Assembly (NCBI RefSeq): GCF_000472665.1 | Contig: NZ_AXAC01000005.1 | Location: forward strand, 1 to 64,000 | Reading direction: 5' to 3' | Origin: Acetobacterium malicum subsp. dehalogenans DSM 11527 | GTDB taxonomy: Bacteria > Bacillota > Clostridia > Eubacteriales > Eubacteriaceae | DNA length: 64,000 nucleotides | Shown here: piece by piece, positions 23,150 through 42,131 of the stretch | Layout of the letters: each line of letters begins with the position of its first letter | Position numbering within the stretch: position 1 is the stretch's first letter | The notes under the pieces: generated by a model | What the model saw: the letters and a program-made list of their open reading frames with translations, nothing else | Told to the model about the DNA's origin: nothing | Databases searched by the model: none | Translations under genes and position numbers: made by a program

Positions 23150-23245
23150 GATGGCCGGGCGCGACATGGGGACATTTCGCCTTTCATCCCGTTTCATGTT
23201 TTACTGATCGGCTCGGCCATGACACGGGGACGCGACGTCAAAAGA
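23150..23245. repeat. Family B repeat, copy 1
   Basis: Contains GACATGGGGACATTTCGCC, TTTCATCCC and CGGGGACGCGACGT, as in other members between 25.8 and 31.2 kb. This copy is rearranged: both halves point the same way. Confidence 0.7.
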
Positions 23246-23251
23246 TAACGT

Positions 23252-23353
23252 AGTACCGACAATTGTTACATCATGTTGTACGCATCGGGGCGAACAGGTT
23301 GATAAACCTGTCCGATCCCGCGGCGAACAACAGATTAGCAATTGGTCGGTACG
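23252..23353 (+). repeat. Family A repeat, short form (copy 1)
   Basis: Starts with GTACCGACAATTGTTAC and ends with CAATTGGTCGGTAC, imperfect terminal inverted repeats of about 28 bases around a GC-rich core with an AACAGGTT...AACCTGTCC hairpin. About 100 bases long. Confidence 0.85.
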
Positions 23354-23379
23354 GCAGTATATTGCTAACCTTGATAAAT

Positions 23380-33497: not shown

Positions 33498-35249
33498 TTA
33501 AACCAATTTTGGTTTTACTGAGTAAGATGTGTGTAATAAGTGATGGGCTTTGTGACCGTTTGGTTCTTCCAGGTATTCTTCGTAAAGACGGATTACGGAA
33601 GGATTCTGGTGAGATTTACGGTAGGTTAAAACATTGGCATCTTCATCATAAAGGGCTTTGGCTCTTTCAACGCGGATATCCACATCCATTTTATCTTTAG
33701 CCGATACGATTGGTTGTCCACCACCGTTGACACAGCCGCCTGGGCAAGCCATCAGTTCGATGAAGTGGGTATCAGCCAGTTCGCCAGCTTTTAATTGTTC
33801 CATGACTTCGCGGATATTAGCTCCACCATGAGCAACCATCAGATTTACTTTTAAATCTGGCGTTACATCAACGCTGGCTTTTTTGATGCCGTCAACGCCA
33901 CGAACAACTTGATATTCAATTTCTTGAATGTCTTTTTTGTTTAATACGTCAGCAACGGTTCTAACGGCTGCTTCCATAACACCACCGGTAGCTCCGAAGA
34001 TAACGGCGGCACCTGTAGATTCACCATAGTAATCGTCAAAGTCTTCGTCTGGCAATTTATTAAACAGGATCCGGGCTTCTTTGATCATTCGCGCTAATTC
34101 ACGGGTAGTGATGGAAATATCAACATCGGCGTTGCCGTCGGTACATAATTCTTCTCGTTGTACTTCGTATTTTTTAGCGGTACAAGGCATGATTGAAACA
34201 ACAACCATATCTTTAGGATCGATGCCATTAGCTTGAGCATAGTGGCTCTTTAATAAAGCACCAGTAATGTTTTGTGGTGATTTACAGCTGGACAGATGAG
34301 GAATTGCTTCTGGATAGTAGGTTTCGATAAATTTAATCCAACCTGGTGAACAGGAAGTAATCATTGGCAGAACGCCACCATTGGTCACACGGCCAATCAG
34401 TTCGGTTCCTTCTTCCATGATACAGACATCAGCACCGAAATCGGTATCGAATACTTTATCAAATCCCAGTCTGCGCAATGCAGCAGCCATTTTTCCGGTT
34501 ACTGATGTTCCCATTGGGTAACCGAATTCTTCACCTAAACCGGCACGAACAGCGGGAGCTGTTTGCACGATAACGGTTTTTGAAGGATCCGCGATGGCAT
34601 CCCAGACCCGTTGAATGTCTGATTTTTCTTTTAAAGCGCCAACTGGACAGTTGATGATACATTGACCACAGTTAATACAGCCAACTTCTGCCAGTGATTT
34701 GTTAAATACTGGTTGAACCTGTGAGGTAAAGCCACGGCCAACGCTGCCAAGTACGGCAACGCTTTGAACGTTGGTACAAACGGATACACAACGCTTGCAA
34801 AGGATACATTTCGTTTCGTCTCTTACTACTGATGTAGATAAATCATCAACTAATGTTCCTGATTTATCGCCTTCGAAGGGAATTTCAGAAACGCCCAGGT
34901 CAGTTGCCAGCGATTGTAATTCGCAGTTTTCGCTACGAACACAGGTAGTACATTCGCGATTATGGTTAGAAAGGATTAATTCAAGATTTACACGTCTTGC
35001 TTTTCTGACTGCTGGAGAGTTTGTCAGTACTTCGATGCCATTGGCAACTGGGTAAACACAAGCTGCTTGTAAAGCTCTTGCTCCAGCGATTTCAACTAAA
35101 CACATCCGACAAGCACCAATCTCGTTAACATCTTTCAGGTAACAGAGAGTGGGGATATCGATATTGCTTTGGCGAGCCGCTTCTAAAATGGTTGTTCCTT
35201 CGGGAACAGTCATTTCCTGACCGTTTATTTTAAATGTTACTTCTTTCAT
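33498..35249 (-). CDS. hydA1: [FeFe] hydrogenase catalytic subunit of electron-bifurcating hydrogenase
   Basis: 583 residues. N-terminal [2Fe-2S] domain (IPTLCYLKDVNEIGACRMC), a His-Cys3 [4Fe-4S] segment (HNRECTTCVRSENCELQ), two [4Fe-4S] motifs (CILCKRCVSVC, CINCGQCIINCP), then the H-cluster domain with TSCSPGW, MPCTAKKYE and MACPGGCVNGGGQP. This layout is the monomer core of group A trimeric/tetrameric bifurcating hydrogenases. With HydB and HydC it couples H2 to NAD and ferredoxin at once in the cytoplasm. Last gene of the operon; ribosome binding site GGAGG. The three maturase genes are not in the window. Confidence 0.95.
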   Translation of the reverse strand: MKEVTFKINGQEMTVPEGTTILEAARQSNIDIPTLCYLKDVNEIGACRMCLVEIAGARALQAACVYPVANGIEVLTNSPAVRKARRVNLELILSNHNRECTTCVRSENCELQSLATDLGVSEIPFEGDKSGTLVDDLSTSVVRDETKCILCKRCVSVCTNVQSVAVLGSVGRGFTSQVQPVFNKSLAEVGCINCGQCIINCPVGALKEKSDIQRVWDAIADPSKTVIVQTAPAVRAGLGEEFGYPMGTSVTGKMAAALRRLGFDKVFDTDFGADVCIMEEGTELIGRVTNGGVLPMITSCSPGWIKFIETYYPEAIPHLSSCKSPQNITGALLKSHYAQANGIDPKDMVVVSIMPCTAKKYEVQREELCTDGNADVDISITTRELARMIKEARILFNKLPDEDFDDYYGESTGAAVIFGATGGVMEAAVRTVADVLNKKDIQEIEYQVVRGVDGIKKASVDVTPDLKVNLMVAHGGANIREVMEQLKAGELADTHFIELMACPGGCVNGGGQPIVSAKDKMDVDIRVERAKALYDEDANVLTYRKSHQNPSVIRLYEEYLEEPNGHKAHHLLHTSYSVKPKLV

Positions 35250-35268: not shown

Positions 35269-37068
35269 TCAACCCTTGGAAATGGAGCCAAATGGACAGG
35301 CTTCAATACAGGCACCACATTTAATACATTTTGCTGTATCAATGGTGTATGGTTTCTTCTTTTCACCGGTGATTGCATCGGCTGGACATTTTTTAGCACA
35401 GATTCCGCAACCCTTACAGGTATCTGGATCGATTGTGAAGTCTAACAGATGTTTACATACGCCAGCGGGACATTTTTTATCATTGATATGTGCTTCATAT
35501 TCATCACGGAAGTAGCGAATAGTTGACAGAACAGGGTTAGGAGCAGTTTGTCCCAAGCCGCAAAGTGCTGAAGCTTTGATCCCTACAGCCAGTTCTTCTA
35601 AGCGTTCGATATCGCCTTCGATCCCTTTACCGTCGCAGATCCGTTCCAGAATTTCTAACATTCTCTTGGTACCGATACGGCAAGGAGGACACTTACCACA
35701 GGATTCGTCCTGAGTAAAGTCAAGGAAGAAACGGGCAACGTCAACCATACAGTTGTCTTCGTCCATTACGATCAGTCCACCAGAACCCATCATGGAGCCG
35801 ATGGCAATCAGGTTATCATAATCAATTTTTGTATCTAATAAAGAAGCAGGGATACATCCGCCTGATGGTCCACCGGTTTGAGCCGCTTTGAAGGCTTTAC
35901 CGTTAGGAATACCACCACCGATTTCAAATACGATTTCTCTCAGGGTTGTGCCCATTGGGATTTCTAATAGACCGGTGTTGTTGATTTTTCCACCAAGTGC
36001 GAATACTTTTGTTCCTTTAGATTTTTCGGTTCCTACTGATGCAAACCATTCTGCGCCTTTTAAGATAATAGCAGGAATATTTGCATAGGTTTCAACGTTA
36101 TTTAAGACGGTTGGTTTTCCAAACAAACCTTTGTTAGCTGGGAATGGTGGACGTGGACGCGGTTCACCACGTTTACCTTCGATCGAGTTCATCAGTGCGG
36201 TTTCTTCACCACATACGAAAGCGCCGGCGCCTAAGCGAATTTCAAGGTCAAAAGCGAAATCGGTATCAAAGATGTTTTCGCCTAATAAACCATATTCTTT
36301 GGCCTGGTCAATCGCAATTTGGAGACGATTAACAGCGATTGGGTACTCAGCTCGGACATATACATAACCTTTAGCTGCGCCAACTGCAAAGCCTGCAATT
36401 GCCATCGCTTCGATTAATGCATGGGGATCTCCTTCTAATACAGATCGATCCATGAATGCACCGGGGTCACCCTCATCGGCGTTACATGCGACGTATTTTA
36501 CGCCATCTTCTGATACAGCGTCATGGGCAAACTGCCATTTAAGACCGGTTGGGAATCCTCCGCCCCCACGACCACGAAGACCGGAAGCTTTAACTTCATT
36601 AATAACGTCAACTGGTGTCATGGTTAACAGTACTTTTTCAAGTGCCATGTAACCGTCAAAGCCAATGTATTCATCAATGTTTTCTGGGTCAATAACGCCA
36701 CAATTTGCTAAAGCAATACGTTTTTGTTTCTTAAAGAATCCTAATTCGTTGATTGACAGTGGATGATGACCATCACCTTTTTCGGTGTAGATCAGGCGAT
36801 CCAAGGGACGACCTTTGACAAGGTGTTCTTCAACCATTTCTGGGATATCTGCTGCTTCAACACGGCTGTAGAAGGTACCTTCTGGGTAAACAATTACAAC
36901 GGGTCCCAGTTCACACAAACCAAAACAACCAGTTGCAACAACTTCAACTTCATCAAGGATATCGTGTTTTACTAATTCTTTTTTTAATTCTTTTACCAAT
37001 ATCATGGATCCTGAGGACGTACATCCTGTACCACCACAAATCAGTATCTGCGAACGTTTATATGCCAT
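35269..37068 (-). CDS. hydB: Electron-bifurcating hydrogenase NuoF-like flavoprotein subunit
   Basis: 599 residues: a thioredoxin-like [2Fe-2S] domain (ILICGGTGCTSSGS... GLCELGP), the NuoF FMN/NADH domain (LRGRGGGGFPTGLKW, CNADEGDPGAFMDR, GAGAYICGEE-type GAGAFVCGEETALM), an SLBB segment, the CGKCPPCRIGTKRM cluster motif and two C-terminal [4Fe-4S] motifs (CKGCGICAKKCP, CIKCGACIEACP). It binds NAD(H) and FMN and is the flavin site of bifurcation. Twenty bases lie between it and hydA1. GGAGGAG upstream of the ATG. Confidence 0.95.
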   Translation of the reverse strand: MAYKRSQILICGGTGCTSSGSMILVKELKKELVKHDILDEVEVVATGCFGLCELGPVVIVYPEGTFYSRVEAADIPEMVEEHLVKGRPLDRLIYTEKGDGHHPLSINELGFFKKQKRIALANCGVIDPENIDEYIGFDGYMALEKVLLTMTPVDVINEVKASGLRGRGGGGFPTGLKWQFAHDAVSEDGVKYVACNADEGDPGAFMDRSVLEGDPHALIEAMAIAGFAVGAAKGYVYVRAEYPIAVNRLQIAIDQAKEYGLLGENIFDTDFAFDLEIRLGAGAFVCGEETALMNSIEGKRGEPRPRPPFPANKGLFGKPTVLNNVETYANIPAIILKGAEWFASVGTEKSKGTKVFALGGKINNTGLLEIPMGTTLREIVFEIGGGIPNGKAFKAAQTGGPSGGCIPASLLDTKIDYDNLIAIGSMMGSGGLIVMDEDNCMVDVARFFLDFTQDESCGKCPPCRIGTKRMLEILERICDGKGIEGDIERLEELAVGIKASALCGLGQTAPNPVLSTIRYFRDEYEAHINDKKCPAGVCKHLLDFTIDPDTCKGCGICAKKCPADAITGEKKKPYTIDTAKCIKCGACIEACPFGSISKG

Positions 37069-37087: not shown

Positions 37088-37486
37088 TTAACCCTTAACC
37101 GTTGGATCAATGACTTTACCATCAACCACAGTCATGGTATATTCATCGACCACTTTGCCTTGAGCCAAGTGTTCATCTACAACTCGTGCAACCTTTTCAG
37201 CGTTCATGTGCACATAGGTTACTTTTTCATTGTTGGCATCGTAAACTTCTACAATTGGTTCCAATCGACATGATCCGATACATCCGGTTTGCGCAACAGT
37301 AACGTCGACTAAACCTTTGGCATCCACTTCTTCCATCAATTTAACCATTACTGGTCGGGCGCCGGCAGCGATGCCACAGGTTGCCATTCCAACTACAACG
37401 CGGTAACCGTTTTTGCCGTGTCGTAAATTGATTTCGTTTAATTTTTTATCACGAATCGCTTTTAGTTCTGCTAAGGACTTTGCCAT
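37088..37486 (-). CDS. hydD: Thioredoxin-like [2Fe-2S] ferredoxin subunit of the hydrogenase
   Basis: 132 residues from the ATG at 37486 (GGAGG upstream), which overlaps the stop of the ATPase gene as TAATG. The fold is the [2Fe-2S] thioredoxin-like type (VVVGMATCGIAAGARPVM, VTVAQTGCIGSCRLEP). It corresponds in place and size to HydD of the A. woodii HydABCD complex, where it is a copurifying subunit; the letter is assigned from memory of that operon. It may pass electrons between HydB and HydA1 or stabilise the complex. Confidence 0.8.
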   Translation of the reverse strand: MAKSLAELKAIRDKKLNEINLRHGKNGYRVVVGMATCGIAAGARPVMVKLMEEVDAKGLVDVTVAQTGCIGSCRLEPIVEVYDANNEKVTYVHMNAEKVARVVDEHLAQGKVVDEYTMTVVDGKVIDPTVKG

Positions 37487-38043
37487 TATTTTTCCTCCAT
37501 AATTTCTTGAATTTCTTTTAGACCCTCTGAAACAAACTCTCGAATCCAATTAAGAATTTCCGGTTCGTTTAAAGATTCAACTTCCAGGGTCTCTTTAATT
37601 TCTCGTGTATTAAAAACAAATAATTGGTTATTGCAGTTGTGTTCATAGCTAAGATCTGCCGCTCCAAAAGACATTACCATGGTGAGAATCGTATCTGCCA
37701 TATTCCCCAGGGGAGCACGGTCGATATGATCTCGCATGAAGGTTCCAACCACCTTTGTGCCAACACCTGGAGTTGAGCTTATCTCGAAATATCCGCCGCA
37801 TGCTTCCGCTGCTGCTTTGAATAGGGATAAACCCAGACCAACCCTACGGGTTGTTCGGGTCGTCACAAATGGATCGGTGATATTTTGAAGCCGGTCGGCC
37901 GGTATTCCGCACCCGTCATCTTCGATGATAATGGTGAGTTCATTGTTTGCCACGGATTCAATAATCACTAATTTAACAAGCTTTGCCTGTGCTCTGATGG
38001 AATTCTGGGTAATATCCAATATATGAAGGGACAATTCTTTCAT
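37486..38043 (-). CDS. hydE: Histidine-kinase-like ATPase of the hydrogenase operon
   Basis: 185 residues. A GHKL ATPase fold: N box (ITQNSIRAQAKLV), G1 box (EDDGCGIPADR) and G2 box (TRRVGLGLSLFKAAAE). There is no His phosphoacceptor, sensor or membrane segment, so it is an ATP-binding protein rather than a full two-component kinase. The same gene lies at this position in hydrogenase operons of other acetogens, but its product is not part of the purified complex as far as I recall. The symbol follows the A. woodii naming and is tentative. Coupled to the next gene by TAATG. Confidence 0.75.
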   Translation of the reverse strand: MKELSLHILDITQNSIRAQAKLVKLVIIESVANNELTIIIEDDGCGIPADRLQNITDPFVTTRTTRRVGLGLSLFKAAAEACGGYFEISSTPGVGTKVVGTFMRDHIDRAPLGNMADTILTMVMSFGAADLSYEHNCNNQLFVFNTREIKETLEVESLNEPEILNWIREFVSEGLKEIQEIMEEK

Positions 38044-38052
38044 AACTGATAA

Positions 38053-38523
38053 CTAGAATTTTTCTAGGATTCCTGGAATTTCATCTACGGTCAAACGTCC
38101 AAATACTTCTTCGTTAATCATCATTACTGGAGCTAAACCACATGCGCCAACACATCGTGTTGCATCAACTGACCATTTTCCATCTTCAGTTGTATCGCCA
38201 ACAGCTGTTCCCAGAATGCCATTAACCTTGTCAATAATTGGTTGGGCGCCTCTAACATAACAAGCAGTTCCCAAACAGATTCCAATTTTGTATTTACCTT
38301 TTGGTGTAAGAGTAAATTGTGAATAAAATGTTGCCACACCGTAGACTTCAGTTAAGGGAATTCCTAACTCATCTGCGATGGTTCCTTGTAGTTCAAGGGG
38401 TAAATAGCCGTACTTTTCTTGTGTTTCCTGCAGAATCTGCATTAAACAACCTGGTACTTCTCTGTGCTCAGCGACTATTGCCTTTACTACGTCCAAATTT
38501 TCAACTGGTATTAATTCAGCCAA
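38053..38523 (-). CDS. hydC: Electron-bifurcating hydrogenase NuoE-like [2Fe-2S] subunit
   Basis: 156 residues. NuoE family: LMQILQETQEKYGYLPLE, CLGTACYVRGAQ and DATRCVGACGLAPVMMI, giving the four cysteines of a [2Fe-2S] cluster. It starts with TTG at 38523, eight bases after AGGAGG; no better ATG exists. First gene of the hyd operon. A vegetative-like -10 and a 20-bp perfect palindrome lie 60-100 bases upstream. The weak start codon could set the ratio of subunits. Confidence 0.93.
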   Translation of the reverse strand: MAELIPVENLDVVKAIVAEHREVPGCLMQILQETQEKYGYLPLELQGTIADELGIPLTEVYGVATFYSQFTLTPKGKYKIGICLGTACYVRGAQPIIDKVNGILGTAVGDTTEDGKWSVDATRCVGACGLAPVMMINEEVFGRLTVDEIPGILEKF

Positions 38524-38590
38524 TTTTCAAACCTCCTAATTAAATCGTGCAAACCTTTACGCTTGTGATTGCATATTTTCTAACGAAGTC

Positions 38591-38620
38591 ATTATAACAC
38601 ATAACGAAATATTTCGTTAT
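38591..38620 (-). promoter_or_regulatory. hydC promoter with perfect palindromic operator
   Basis: TATAAT on the minus strand (38596-38591) sets the start near 38584, 60 bases before hydC. ATAACGAAATATTTCGTTAT (38601-38620) is a perfect 20-base palindrome centred near -26.5, in the spacer/-35 region. No good -35 hexamer is visible. Position fits a repressor; it does not match the Rex (TTGTGA) or Fur consensus. Confidence 0.7.
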
Positions 38621-38799
38621 ATTTATAACAGATAAATTTTTTACCCTTTTCGCCCCAATTTTTAATGAAAACCTTTAACTTTATCGATTTTTGAAGCAAA
38701 AATTCTACTCATTTGTTTTTTTAGTAAAAAAAGTGTAATAATTTTGCACAAAAAAACAGGTACTTCGAAAAATACCTGTAAAGTTCACGGCCAGCTACC

Positions 38800-38899
38800 G
38801 TACCGACCAATTGTTAATCTGTTGTTCGCTGCGGAATCGGACAGGTTTATCAACCTGTCCGCTCCGATGCGTACAACATGATGTAACAATTGTCGGTAC
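38800..38899 (-). repeat. Family A repeat, short form (copy 2)
   Basis: 100 bases, inverted relative to copy 1. Perfect inner hairpin GGACAGGTT-tatc-AACCTGTCC; ends GTACCGAC/GTCGGTAC. Confidence 0.88.
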
Positions 38900-38911
38900 T
38901 ACTTATTGAAT

Positions 38912-39655
38912 TTAACCCAAATAACCGATCAGCGTTTGTCGTTGCATATCCGGGAGTTCCAGAAAGTATTCCCGTTCAGCCATATCTTCTAATTGATGCG
39001 CGTCAGAGCCATGGATAAACTGATAGTCTTTGAAGAAGCGGAAGTTCTTCAGAACATTGTCGAATGTTTCTTTTTTTGAAACTTCACAGGTTTTTATATC
39101 CAAATCCAGGGGAATAAAACCCAGCGACGCCAGGATGCTGTAGGACTTTCGGTCGATATGAGCCGGCACCAGAATCCCGCCGAGATCGGTGACAATTTCC
39201 CAGAGTTTTTCGACACTGATATCCGTGGCCGAAATCAGAAGCTTGTCGACTTCGCCGATGATCTGATCGTTTTCGTCCATGATATACTGCGGTCCAAATA
39301 ATGCTTTTTCATTCATCACATCGGGCAAATGCTGATAAATGATCGCGTCCAATTTCAGGGCGGCTTCCAGGGTTGGCAAATAGGCTAGAATGTGGGCTTC
39401 TTCCCTGGTCGTGACTTCGATTCCGGGCAGAATGCAAATCCCTTTTTCCGTTTCTTTGGCCAGTTCTTTGGCCACCGCCATAACGGCAGGTAAATTCCTG
39501 GCGCTGTTATGATCGGTTACCGCAATAAAATCCAGTTCTTTAATGAGGGCCATATTCACAATGTTATTGGGGGTCATCTCTTCTTCTCCGCAGGGGGATA
39601 AGACCGAGTGGATGTGTAAATCTATGGCTACCTTATCCATTTTAGATGCCGGCAT
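38912..39655 (-). CDS. PHP-domain phosphoesterase of the sensory operon
   Basis: 247 residues (or 242 if it starts at the ATG at 39640, right behind the upstream stop). PHP motifs: IDLHIHSVLSPCGEEEMTP, AVTDHNSARN, PGIEVTTREEAHIL, VPAHIDRKSYS and IHGSDAHQLEDM; related to the TrpH/YciV type, which removes phosphate from short nucleic acids or 3',5'-bisphosphonucleosides. The start overlaps the DRTGG gene, so the two are translationally coupled. Its role in a redox-sensing operon is unclear; nucleotide signal breakdown is a possibility only. Confidence 0.82.
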   Translation of the reverse strand: MPASKMDKVAIDLHIHSVLSPCGEEEMTPNNIVNMALIKELDFIAVTDHNSARNLPAVMAVAKELAKETEKGICILPGIEVTTREEAHILAYLPTLEAALKLDAIIYQHLPDVMNEKALFGPQYIMDENDQIIGEVDKLLISATDISVEKLWEIVTDLGGILVPAHIDRKSYSILASLGFIPLDLDIKTCEVSKKETFDNVLKNFRFFKDYQFIHGSDAHQLEDMAEREYFLELPDMQRQTLIGYLG

Positions 39656-39974
39656 TTCCTAAAATTTTACAGACTTCGTAGGCGTTAAGACCGGTGGTAA
39701 GAATTGGGATATCCTCAATGATGGCGCGCTCCAGGGTACTTTCTTCCACTTCAGCACCTTCAGGAATAATAACGCAGGTCATTTCCAGCAAGGTGGCCAC
39801 GGCAATGATATTGACATGGGTCTGGATCGTCACCCAGGCGCAGCCATTGCCGGCATTGGCCATAACCCAGCTCAACAAGTCACCGACATAGCCACTTTTA
39901 ATGACCCCTTCAATTCCTACCTGAGGATTGAGACACTTGAATTCTTTGTTTTCTAATAATCCACTAACCTTCAT
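39642..39974 (-). CDS. DRTGG-domain protein (second copy)
   Basis: 110 residues, one DRTGG domain: a CBS-like alpha/beta fold with GYVGDLLSWVMANAG, TIQTHVNIIAVATLLEMTCVIIPEG and IPILTTGLNAYEVCKILG. Such domains may bind nucleotides; a single-domain form is common next to iron-only hydrogenase genes of clostridia. It is a distant relative of the protein at 41781-42131, so the operon contains two of these. AAAGGAG upstream. Confidence 0.8.
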   Translation of the reverse strand: MKVSGLLENKEFKCLNPQVGIEGVIKSGYVGDLLSWVMANAGNGCAWVTIQTHVNIIAVATLLEMTCVIIPEGAEVEESTLERAIIEDIPILTTGLNAYEVCKILGNAGI

Positions 39975-40005
39975 TCATATTCTCCTTTATGATTTTTTTC
40001 ATAAA

Positions 40006-41349
40006 CTAATCTTTTTTAATCAGGGGCTTTTCGGTGGGGTGTTCCACTTGTAAGAGTTCATTGGTTAAGACTGAGAGATCTCTGACCCGGTCTTTTAAGA
40101 CGAAAACGCAATCGATTTCTTTGGCTTTTCCGGCGACAATGTCTTCGGCCAGGGCCCGGCAGCCGGGGGCTCCGCAGGAACCACAGTCCAAACCAGGCAG
40201 TTTGCTTTCCAGCACTTCGATTTGTTTCATTTTTTCAATCGCCCGGTTGATGTCCTGATCCAGCGGTTCGGGACTTCTGGGCAGAATCCGTTCTTTGATA
40301 TGCATCATCCCGGAATTATATATATTTTTGACGTACTCGTCTGACATATGCACAATCGATGTCTGTTTCATTTTTTTGGCCCGATCCTGGATATACATTT
40401 TAGCCACATAATTATTTTCCACGGTCAGACAGCCGCCAACGCAACCGCCAATACAGGCCAGACCTTCAAAAAATTCGATGGTATCCAGTTTACCGCATTC
40501 AATTTCTTCGAGGACATTGATGACGTTTTGGATGCCATCCACATGAAGGACATTTTTATTTTTAAGATAATCACTTTCACCACCGGACAAGGCCCAGGTG
40601 CAGGATTCGGGGGTGGTATTATGAATCCCTTCCTGGATCGGACAACTGCCGATCAGACTGGCGAGATCGCTGTAAATATCTTTAATGGCAATGGCGCCAT
40701 CGATCTGATCGTATTTATCGTATTCGCTGGCGGCCGGATTATTAACCATGGTGGCCTTTGCCGCGCAGGGAGTGATGAAAAAAACACCGACATCACTGTT
40801 TTTATAGTTCCCCTCTTCTCTGATCCGTTTTCTGATCAGTCTGGCCGTCATCGCCATCGGTGATTTTAAGCGACAGACATTGCCGGTCAGCTCGGGAAAG
40901 CGTACCTGAATCAGCTTGACCACGGCCGGACAGGCTGATGAAATCAGCGGCCGTGGATAGCGTTTGGCATGGTATTCATACTTCAGCGCCTGACCAACGA
41001 TTTCAGCTCCATAGGCCACTTCCACCACCTCATCAAAGCCCAGAGCCTTAACTGCCGAAAGAATCTGATCGATGGAATACTTGGGCTTAAACTGACCGAT
41101 GATCGCCGGTGCTACCATGGCCACGGTGTATTCATAGTCGTCTTTCTTTGACAGCGGATCTGTTTTTGCCAGCTTGGCGTGATGGGGACAGATCCGAATA
41201 CACTCGCCGCAGTCAATGCATTTGGACTCGTTGATAATCGCTTTGCCGCCCCGTACCCGGATGGCTCCGGTGGGACAGCTTCTGAGACAGGTGGTACAGC
41301 CCAGACATTTTTCCTCATCAAGGTATACAGAATGAAGTAATTTTTCCAT
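40006..41349 (-). CDS. Hydrogenase-like iron-sulfur sensor protein (group C/D-type)
   Basis: 447 residues. Two N-terminal [4Fe-4S] motifs ([24 protein letters not shown]), an [FeFe]-hydrogenase large-subunit domain with altered H-cluster motifs (SSACPA instead of [24 protein letters not shown]), and a C-terminal FeS domain ([21 protein letters not shown]). The Cys ligands of the H-cluster seem kept while catalytic surroundings differ, as in putative sensory hydrogenases. No PAS domain. The operon partners (RsbW-like ATPase, DRTGG proteins) suggest that it senses H2 or ferredoxin redox state. GGTGA upstream. Confidence 0.82.
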
Positions 41350-41367
41350 ATGTCACCTTCTTCCTGT

Positions 41368-41784
41368 TTATACTAAAAATTTCATGACAATTTTTGTACC
41401 TTCTCCAATTTTTGAAGAAATCTGAAAATTGTCAGCATTGTTTTTCATATTCGGCAGGCCCATTCCCGCCCCGAAACCCATTTGCCGGACTTCATCCCCG
41501 GCCGTTGACCAACCGGCCGTCATCGCCAGATCGATATTCGCGATCCCCGGACCGGTATCTTCAATGGTCAGAACCAATTCTTCTTCGCCCACTTCCAGAA
41601 TGATTTTTCCGCCCGCTGAATGGATTGCCAAATTCATTTCACCTTCGTAACCGGCAATCGACACCTTCCTTATCACCTTATTGGAAATCCCCAACTGCTG
41701 GAGGGTCCGTTTGATTTTTCGTGAGGCTTCGCCGGCGGTATCAAAGTCTCCCCGTTCCACATCAAAGACGAGTTCGTAACTCAT
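41368..41784 (-). CDS. RsbW-like anti-sigma / serine kinase ATPase
   Basis: 138 residues, a GHKL ATPase: N box EGEMNLAIHSAGG, G1 box IEDTGPGIANIDLA and G2 box GFGAGMGLPNMK. It is the anti-sigma regulatory factor type, which binds a sigma factor or phosphorylates an anti-anti-sigma partner; neither is encoded next door. The start overlaps the DRTGG gene (ATGA). The hydrogenase-like sensor follows 18 bases downstream, so a signal-transducing complex with it is plausible. Confidence 0.83.
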   Translation of the reverse strand: MSYELVFDVERGDFDTAGEASRKIKRTLQQLGISNKVIRKVSIAGYEGEMNLAIHSAGGKIILEVGEEELVLTIEDTGPGIANIDLAMTAGWSTAGDEVRQMGFGAGMGLPNMKNNADNFQISSKIGEGTKIVMKFLV

Positions 41785-42131
41785 CTAAGGTGGGCTCCTT
41801 TAAGACCATTTTTATAGAGAATGCCACAGCATTCAAAAAGAATATATTTGGTGGACATAACCAGAAGATTGCGTTCTTTGGCCATCTCGATCATTTCCTG
41901 ACTGGGCATTTTATCTCTGACAAAGATGATACTGTTCATATTTGCCATATCGGCGGTATTCAGCACCTGCTTGTTGACCAGACCGGTGAGAAGAATGGCA
42001 TCTTCCCGGGCAAAGCACAGAACATCACTCATCAGATCACAGCCAAACCCGGACTGAACTTCTTCATCCAGGTGGCTCTCTCCGGATAATACAACAGCAT
42101 CGAGAAGGTCTCTTACCAGACTTAATTTCAT
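41781..42131 (-). CDS. DRTGG-domain protein (first copy)
   Basis: 116 residues, single DRTGG domain (GFGCDLMSDVLCFAREDAILLTG, NSIIFVRDKMPSQEMIEMA, STKYILFECCGILY). First gene of the five-gene operon that runs toward the hydrogenase. Overlaps the RsbW-like gene by four bases. AAAAGGAG site upstream. DRTGG domains occur in PTA and pyrophosphatase fusions, where they may sense adenine nucleotides. Confidence 0.82.
   Translation of the reverse strand: MKLSLVRDLLDAVVLSGESHLDEEVQSGFGCDLMSDVLCFAREDAILLTGLVNKQVLNTADMANMNSIIFVRDKMPSQEMIEMAKERNLLVMSTKYILFECCGILYKNGLKGAHLR

Follow-up and report, generated by a model that had tools for sequence, protein, structure and literature searches.

A DRTGG-GHKL-PHP gene cassette with a group D [FeFe] hydrogenase in Acetobacterium, a candidate signalling switch found in many bacterial groups

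Background

Within group D (M2e) of the [FeFe] hydrogenases, a putative sensor class, the HydS of Thermoanaerobacter mathranii (TamHydS) has been purified and studied (PMC8163306, PMC10407848, PMC13104023). Here we compare with it a locus of Acetobacterium malicum subsp. dehalogenans DSM 11527 that lies in a stretch of 64,000 nucleotides (contig NZ_AXAC01000005.1, positions 1 to 64,000; henceforth the window). This locus is a run of five intact open reading frames at 42131-38912, all on the minus strand, which encode the proteins D1, W, S, D2 and P in that order and stand beside a hydrogenase (hyd) operon, as a first-pass annotation made from the letters of the DNA had stated. D1 and D2 are DRTGG proteins, W is a GHKL ATPase, S is the hydrogenase-like putative sensor, P is a PHP-family protein, and a further ATPase, K, is encoded within the hyd operon. 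The same annotation had called the proposed sensor path biochemically uncharacterised, which cannot be maintained for the sensor, given the studies of its class named above.

According to these papers, group D is marked by the absence of PAS, the loss of C299 (numbering of CpI), the change of M353 to Ser or Thr, the proton-path residues E252, E289, S249 and D265, a C-terminal Cx2Cx4Cx16C motif and conserved charged residues near the clusters (PMC8163306, PMC10407848, PMC13104023). A shape change of TamHydS on H2 has been reported (PMC13104023). In Table 6 of Carere et al. (2012), a few genes separate the trimeric hydrogenase from the group D gene in C. bescii, C. thermocellum and C. subterraneus tengcongensis, and these authors already note kinases near such genes (PMC3561251). 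How group D hydrogenases transmit their signal is an open question in the conclusions of Land et al. (2020), and Schumann et al. (2026) note the limited knowledge of partners along with a C-terminal cluster that is unresponsive to H2. S shares with TamHydS the PAS-less domain plan, the cysteine motifs, the proton-path residues and the position upstream of a trimeric hydrogenase; the difference is that the TamHydS papers deal with the hydrogenase, while a search of titles and abstracts gave no description of the other five proteins (W, D1, D2, P, K) as one unit.

Three other known systems bear on the comparison. The group C (M2f) HydS proteins (TmHydS, RaHydS, HfsB) are, like S, putative H2 sensors with a C-terminal iron-sulfur (FeS) domain, but they have PAS, which S lacks, and stand apart from S in a tree of the H-domain. 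The classification behind the label M2e is reportedly that of Calusinska (2010). The partner-switching kinases, among which RsbT belongs in the comparison beside SpoIIAB and RsbW, share with W the SpoIIAB fold, an intact GHKL site and the Glu in the N-box; the cassette differs from them in that its conserved set includes no STAS partner or sigma factor, and DRTGG proteins stand in the place of STAS. Finally, Rex, an NADH-sensing repressor of hydrogen-metabolism genes, has sites supported by a mobility-shift assay before the hyd operon beside the group D hydS of C. bescii (PMC6391272), and relatives of the cassette have rex coupled or fused to the D1 gene, but it is not linked to the cassette in the genome of the window. 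A search of titles and abstracts found no description of a DRTGG-GHKL-PHP cassette with a sensory hydrogenase, and titles, abstracts and passages of three Rex papers contained no mention of Rex being tied to a cassette with a hydrogenase sensor. Hence, the sensor class is known, while the cassette and its link to Rex seem new.

Conservation of the gene set

We narrowly favour the reading that the six proteins D1, W, S, D2, P and K constitute one signalling cassette, in which a switch leads from S to W and D1 and which has Rex as its output in some lineages; judged by its fusions, this cassette of many bacterial groups looks like an undescribed signalling switch. S and W are strictly co-inherited. 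When 398 genomes of the phylum were searched (S at E up to 1e-40, W at E up to 1e-25), S was found in 163 and W in 169, both being present in 160 of the 172 genomes holding either, with S alone in 3 and W alone in 9. Such a co-occurrence analysis had been called for in the first-pass annotation, and its result, the conserved gene order and the fusions described below all support the path suggested there from an FeS or H2 sensor to a kinase-like ATPase.

The order D1-W-S-D2-P recurs, complete or mostly, in loci of 80 genera, which come from the 98 other genera with a match and were all picked for having S. Our tally covers 80 S loci, namely 79 fetched ones and the window, and excludes L091, where S is fused to W (loci are given L numbers and genomes G numbers). 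W is directly upstream of S in 76 of them, a separate D1 precedes W in 57, D2 is directly downstream of S in 68 (two others being fusions of S with D2), and P comes next in 63, followed by hydC in 46 loci and by K or a P=K fusion in 17. This order is kept at a median pairwise identity of S of 46% (579 pairs), while four other genes that flank the module in the window are nearly absent from relative loci (SbcC-like, SbcD-like and methyltransferase-like genes in none of 160, RecD2 in 1 of 160; phmmer, E up to 1e-8), which argues that it exceeds chance. A second set, obtained by a scan of the contigs of named genomes with the D1=W fusion, comprises the best 80 of at least 570 relatives; S is present in 77 of these 80 named loci, whose titles include Clostridia, Bacteroidales, Spirochaetes, Synergistaceae, Nitrospirae, Aminicenantes, Coatesbacteria, Desulfobacterales, Actinobacteria and others, many of them metagenome-assembled genomes. 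The two sets partly overlap (L072 and L135, L058 and L166) and their loci are related, so the counts are not independent.

Of the 80 one-per-genus loci, 57 have hyd genes in the stretch, as would be expected if the genes were co-kept merely as a hydrogenase island with no common pathway. We regard this as very improbable, given that neighbours in the set are joined by fusions, that the set is also found without S and without hyd, and that S and W occur together so regularly. In several loci rnf genes are near the module, replacing hyd or besides it (L046, L049, L081, L132, L138).

Fusions and exchange of the sensor

Natural fusions, counted with our own profiles of the module proteins, join nearly every pair of neighbours. 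D1 is fused to W in 13 loci, W to S in four (L091, L119, L202, L206), S to D2 in two (L048, L065) and P to K in four (L040, L084, L088, L103); Pfam confirms one case each of the W=S, S=D2 and P=K fusions. The 10 extended frames of the tallied one-per-genus set are six D1=W fusions, fusions of CBS to W (L049, L100, L113) and one other extension (L073). D2-P is the only link lacking a fusion, and in the window the genes of these two proteins overlap. Together with the Rex=D1 fusions discussed below, this suggests contacts W-S, D1-W, S-D2, P-K and Rex-D1, each indicated by a fusion. The lone GHKL ATPase that the first-pass annotation had noticed in the hyd operon is real (38043-37486), but it is not a separate oddity: because K is fused to P in four relatives, it is the sixth member of the cassette.

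The sensor of this set appears to vary. Among 180 W frames, 10 have a CBS pair fused to W, and Pfam confirms six of these fusions. In 6 of these 10 loci, from four genomes, no S is present in the stretch; L252 and L257, for example, have the order rex, D1, CBS=W, D2, P, K. In L160 (Thermodesulfovibrionia) and L173 (Nitrospirae), again with no S in the stretch, a HisKA kinase and a receiver precede D1-W-D2-P, the receiver being identified by Pfam in L160 and by likeness only in L173. Since copies lacking S have either CBS=W or a histidine kinase and receiver before D1, the set D1-W-D2-P-K looks like a cassette to which different sensors can be attached. A tentative extension, which we hold to be plausible though less likely than not, is that D1-W-D2-P-K represents a separate signalling class, a GHKL-DRTGG switch with varied sensors, with DRTGG proteins in the place of STAS and with a PHP protein phosphatase for its reset, which would gate Rex; the NADH set-point of the redox regulon would then move with H2 tension and adenylate state.

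Several other signalling domains were observed near such loci. Close to the cassette without S in L160, a receiver domain is joined to a GCV_H domain (L160:12690-13457; 24.7 bits, cut-off 22.2). The neighbours of W-S in L069 include CheW, an OmpR-type regulator and a histidine kinase, and a frame in the same locus (L069:5434-7347) combines Fe_hyd_lg_C and FeS with the signalling domain of a methyl-accepting chemotaxis protein, i.e. a hydrogenase-like chemoreceptor. Genes for SpoIIE-type PP2C phosphatases are found beside the cassette in Bacteroidota (L188:6615-7796, L182:7548-8738), and L182 also has a PAS-type hydrogenase.

The sensor S

The features published as typical of group D (M2e) [FeFe] hydrogenases are present in S, which puts it with TamHydS in a class of putative sensors and makes it a protein of a known kind. 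Pfam lists two Fer4 domains, Fe_hyd_lg_C (131.8 bits) and FeS PF04060 (48.6 bits), with no PAS, and the C-terminal Cx2Cx4Cx16C motif is formed by C389, C392, C397 and C414. As originally noticed in the sequence, the four cysteines of the H-cluster are retained (C140, C195, C299, C303), whereas Ala, Thr and Leu occupy the sites of Cys, Met and Met in the group A HydA of the window; C299 of CpI is replaced by A139 and the position of its M353 is T193. The proton-path residues E252, E289, S249 and D265 of TamHydS correspond to E258, E295, S255 and D271, placed by the motifs and spacings published for TamHydS and not by sequence alignment to it, and the motifs likewise identify R31, R33, E402 and D403 with the conserved charged positions close to the clusters. 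Across 27 S sequences of diverse lineages, the position of E289 is always Glu and that of E252 is Glu in 23 (exceptions L049, L191, L203, L202). All 27 are monophyletic in a midpoint-rooted H-domain tree, with a node support of 0.40 and no named group D reference in the tree. S probably senses H2 rather than producing it.

Apart from S, Fe_hyd_lg_C occurs in the products of two genes of the genome (4.05 Mb in 76 contigs): hydA and the gene of a second putative sensory hydrogenase of 567 aa on contig C6 (L002:1285-2988), which seems to be of the group C type by motifs and length, its PAS having been read from the sequence and not from a family search.

The partner proteins

D1 and D2, the sole DRTGG matches in the genome (E up to 0.05), score 23.7 and 21.1 bits in Pfam, just below the cut-off of 25.2, and the D2 part of the S=D2 fusion L048 passes it with 25.7 bits. 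In an AlphaFold2 (AF2) model of the D1=W fusion of L129 (98 sequences), the D1 part is matched by Foldseek to the DRTGG protein AF1212 (2ioj, TMt 0.78) and also resembles the DRTGG domain of a CBS-pyrophosphatase. S35 and T49 of D1 are identical in all 57 aligned sequences (here and for W the window is included).

W matches HATPase_c with 38.8 bits (cut-off 26.4) and has an intact ATPase site, E47, N51, D76, G78, G80, G103, G105, G107 and G109 being identical in 76 of 76 aligned sequences. Its part of the L129 model is SpoIIAB-like, with 1til and 1l0o as the best PDB matches (TMt 0.84), and a sequence search of the PDB gave no relative at E up to 0.01. The label of a histidine kinase fragment was rejected for W, to which Pfam assigns HATPase domains (next to a chance-level RecX match) and whose fold is that of SpoIIAB. 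The fold, albeit modelled in a relative, and an NCBIfam spIIAB match of E 3.2e-13 would suit a genuine anti-sigma factor whose sigma factor is encoded elsewhere, D1 and D2 then being anti-anti-sigma proteins of a new fold. This we consider decidedly improbable, as W does not come near the curated cut-offs (spIIAB 49.8 against 135 bits, RsbW 13.3 against 145) and no sigma factor was recognised by eye in the 28 largest neighbour clusters, the rest of the genome not having been searched for sigma factors. A classical two-component or anti-sigma system was also considered and rejected for the window, because its module and hyd genes include no HisKA or receiver domain (Pfam), and no STAS partner or sigma factor, the remainder of the genome not having been searched for the latter two.

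P exceeds the PHP cut-off (PF02811, 27.6 against 26.4 bits), and H14, H16, D48 and H49 are identical in 63 of 63 aligned sequences, with E80, H166, D218 and H220 conserved at 95% or more in the same sequences; we take these His, Asp and Glu residues to be the metal-binding residues of the PHP family. Its best NCBIfam match is the TrlF family (59.1 against a cut-off of 350), and a sequence search of the PDB returned a single weak match (7ug9, E 0.0041). The NCBIfam models for a nucleoside bisphosphate phosphatase and RNase RNM score 29.1 and 29.8 bits, far below their cut-offs. These PHP relatives and the CBS pairs fused to W would accord with an output in which P hydrolyses a nucleotide, such as pAp, that is sensed by DRTGG or CBS, S being a redox input only. 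We think this improbable, since the conserved set contains no nucleotide-making enzyme and P is not next after D2 in 17 of the 80 tallied loci, four of which are P=K fusions.

The AF2 model of K has a mean predicted local distance difference test score (pLDDT) of 92.8 and a predicted TM-score (pTM) of 0.89. Foldseek places histidine kinase ATPase domains at the top, over the ATPase part, but alignment of the whole chain with VIA-align puts TopoVI-B first (9o0g, Z 14.2, root-mean-square deviation 2.7, 138 aligned) in a tie with MutL (9n2k, Z 14.0, deviation 3.0, 147 aligned). A histidine kinase fragment is, accordingly, probably the wrong label for K. A fold that these modelled partners have in common with known proteins demonstrates no function.

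Rex as a possible output

The first-pass annotation had stated that no response regulator, sigma factor or anti-anti-sigma factor is encoded. This is true of the window, but some relatives carry rex coupled or fused to D1, and through them a candidate transcriptional output can be named. In the actinobacterial loci L202 and L206 Rex and D1 are fused: the frame of L202 has PF06971 and PF02629 by Pfam and ends in D1 by our own profile, and L206 has the same plan by phmmer. In L057, L068, L080, L085, L093, L116, L129 and L130 the 3' end of rex overlaps the start of a D1=W fusion by 4 bp. Rex is within the stretch in 15 of the 80 one-per-genus loci and in 8 of the 80 named loci, against a chance expectation of about 1 in 80, roughly calculated for 17 kb stretches in genomes of about 2.6 Mb with one or two Rex genes. 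In a tree of Rex sequences the module-linked copies are spread over several distinct branches; some rows marked STD in it duplicate these module-linked genes. Besides the linked Rex, another match is present elsewhere in the genome in 6 of 6 genomes of one set and 10 of 13 of another, the latter drawn from 25 genomes searched for Rex, of which 13 had a module-linked Rex and some others were picked with no criterion.

Of 144 loci, 30 have a Rex-like palindrome (at least 10 of 12 positions) upstream of D1, and of 101 loci, 18 have one upstream of hydC, compared with means of 5.4 and 4.0 and maxima of 12 and 9 for 39 scrambled palindromes. In the literature, Rex sites before the C. bescii hyd operon Athe_1295-1299 are backed by a mobility-shift assay (PMC6391272); just ahead of this operon lies Athe_1292, a group D hydS (PMC3561251). 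In C. thermocellum, DNA affinity purification sequencing gave a Rex peak at the orthologous operon Clo1313_1885-1881 (PMC8457756). T. saccharolyticum has a predicted Rex site at the PHP-domain gene Tsac_1856 (PMC5886521). Taken together, Rex is a possible output of the cassette in some lineages. A gene for an RseC/MucC-like protein (PF04246) was seen between K and rex in L056 (3127-3603); its cluster recurs in 6 loci.

A proposed mechanism

In the favoured reading S would read H2 or low-potential electrons at its H-cluster and change shape, which would alter the state of W through contact. W, probably a protein kinase or an ATP-driven switch, would act on D1, and S would act with D2, such that the DRTGG proteins fill the role that STAS proteins have in classical partner switching. 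P might then strip a phosphoryl mark or a nucleotide signal and thereby reset the switch, whereas K may be a second, MutL-like ATP switch adjoining the target enzyme. In some lineages D1 would pass the signal to the Rex repressor, and the H2 state would be added to the NADH state in the control of hyd or rnf. Every biochemical step, be it kinase, phosphatase or H2 sensing, we infer, and the same applies to Rex as the output in this organism.

A number of observations weigh against this reading. The invariant Ser and Thr of D1 and D2 may be traits of the whole DRTGG family, and the D1-W interface is not confidently predicted in the L129 model, where pTM is 0.56 despite a high pLDDT of 91.8. The C-terminal cluster of TamHydS is neither reduced by H2 nor responsive to it (PMC13104023), which disfavours one obvious signal route. 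Some of the S-less CBS=W loci are from genomes with S elsewhere (G304 and G387, which are the genomes of L252 and L257, and G117). Neither hyd nor rnf was found, at the thresholds used, in 20 of the 80 one-per-genus and 33 of the 80 named loci, some of which end early at contig ends. Rex linkage is confined to a minority of loci, and genes that we named folC and valS from reading their sequences recur near the module more often (26 and 17 loci) than rex (16 in that count), so nearness of rex alone proves little. In the window's genome the sole Rex is on another contig, and no good Rex site was found upstream of D1 or hydC in the window, the best match being 8 of 12; the Rex step is therefore drawn here from relatives. 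Lastly, in a C. bescii rex deletion the expression of the first hyd gene shifted slightly, by a log2 of -0.13 to -0.38 (PMC6391272), a drop that conflicts with strong repression by Rex, which would predict a rise.

The near-constancy of hyd expression in that deletion (PMC6391272) would be expected if the cassette acted not on transcription but directly on the hydrogenase (or Rnf), by ATP-dependent modification or assembly, with K as its acting end. The place of K between hydC and hydD in the window, the order hydC then K in many relatives and the likeness of K to MutL/TopoVI ATPase clamps also fit such direct control, as do nearby maturase genes, presumably hydG and hydF by our reading of their sequences (9 and 8 loci). 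The Rex=D1 fusion and the overlap of rex with the module indicate transcription instead, and K also follows P where no nearby hyd gene was found (L047, L067, L079); we judge direct control of the enzyme to be unlikely, though a serious contender.

The locus and its surroundings

The features of the locus are collected in Table 1. The coupling by overlaps claimed for the five genes is borne out at two of the four junctions, D1/W (4 bp) and D2/P (14 bp), and not at the others, where gaps of 18 bp (W-S) and 31 bp (S-D2) were found. After the hairpin the order of the hyd operon is hydC, K, hydD, hydB, hydA. Given the terminator-like hairpin between P and hydC, the set D1-P and hyd may be two transcription units in the window; the stretch has 2 terminator-like sites, compared with 3.8 expected in shuffled sequence. 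HydA passes the NCBIfam model for the NADH-dependent group A6 (873 against a cut-off of 765). It has the motif TSCSPGW, plus a Cys in the downstream SSCKSP, and the Ser of TSCSPGW is also present in 6 of 7 aligned relative HydA proteins; we take the counterpart in CpI to be TSCCPGW.

Table 1. Features of the cassette and the neighbouring hyd operon in the window
Feature	Coordinates	Strand	Basis
D1, single-domain DRTGG protein, 116 aa, first gene	41781..42131	-	Pfam DRTGG, sub-threshold
W, GHKL ATPase, SpoIIAB/RsbW fold, 138 aa	41368..41784	-	HATPase_c
S, group D (M2e) [FeFe] hydrogenase, putative H2/redox sensor, 447 aa	40006..41349	-	Pfam architecture and group D residues
D2, second single-domain DRTGG protein, 110 aa	39642..39974	-	Pfam DRTGG, sub-threshold
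P, PHP-family phosphoesterase-like protein, 247 aa	38912..39655	-	PF02811
Terminator-like hairpin between P and hydC	38756..38779	-	Hairpin scan
Perfect 20-bp palindrome, hydC promoter region, candidate operator	38601..38620	.	Genome and congener comparison
hydC, NuoE-like subunit of the neighbouring hydrogenase	38053..38523	-	Pfam
K, GHL-type ATPase without HisKA, within the hyd operon	37486..38043	-	HATPase_c, 62.4 bits
hydD, 2Fe-2S thioredoxin-like protein	37088..37486	-	Pfam, 21.5 bits, below cut-off 24.8
hydB, NuoF-like subunit	35269..37068	-	Pfam
hydA, group A [FeFe] hydrogenase	33498..35249	-	NCBIfam FeFe_hydrog_A6

The palindrome of the hydC promoter region is unique in the genome within 3 mismatches. 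Among 11 congeners in which hydC was found, it recurs with 1 to 3 mismatches in 8 and shows 6 to 10 mismatches in the other 3; its left half, the sequence to the left of it and the -10 region seem to be as conserved in these congeners as the whole palindrome. It was considered as a Rex operator and rejected, not being Rex-like. To its left, within 38590-38640, is a second palindrome, GTTATAAATATAAC, and both are largely conserved across the genus. An inverted-repeat element of about 106 bp, resembling miniature inverted-repeat transposable elements or repetitive extragenic palindromes, occurs at 38795-38912 and 23245-23357, one copy abutting the stop codon of P. At least 42 matches were counted genome-wide, 40 of 124 candidates having been scored, and two of these matches are reverse-strand matches of counted copies; as a genome-wide repeat, it was dismissed as a regulatory element of hyd.

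Significance

The fusions point to candidate partners: S would pair with W and D2, W with D1 and, in some lineages, D1 with Rex, which makes the signal path directly testable with a few purified proteins. If the reading is true, the sensing of H2 would be tied to a main redox repressor of fermenting and acetogenic bacteria, and this may have a bearing on the yields of ethanol and H2 in fuel strains and on the exchange of H2 in gut and sediment communities.

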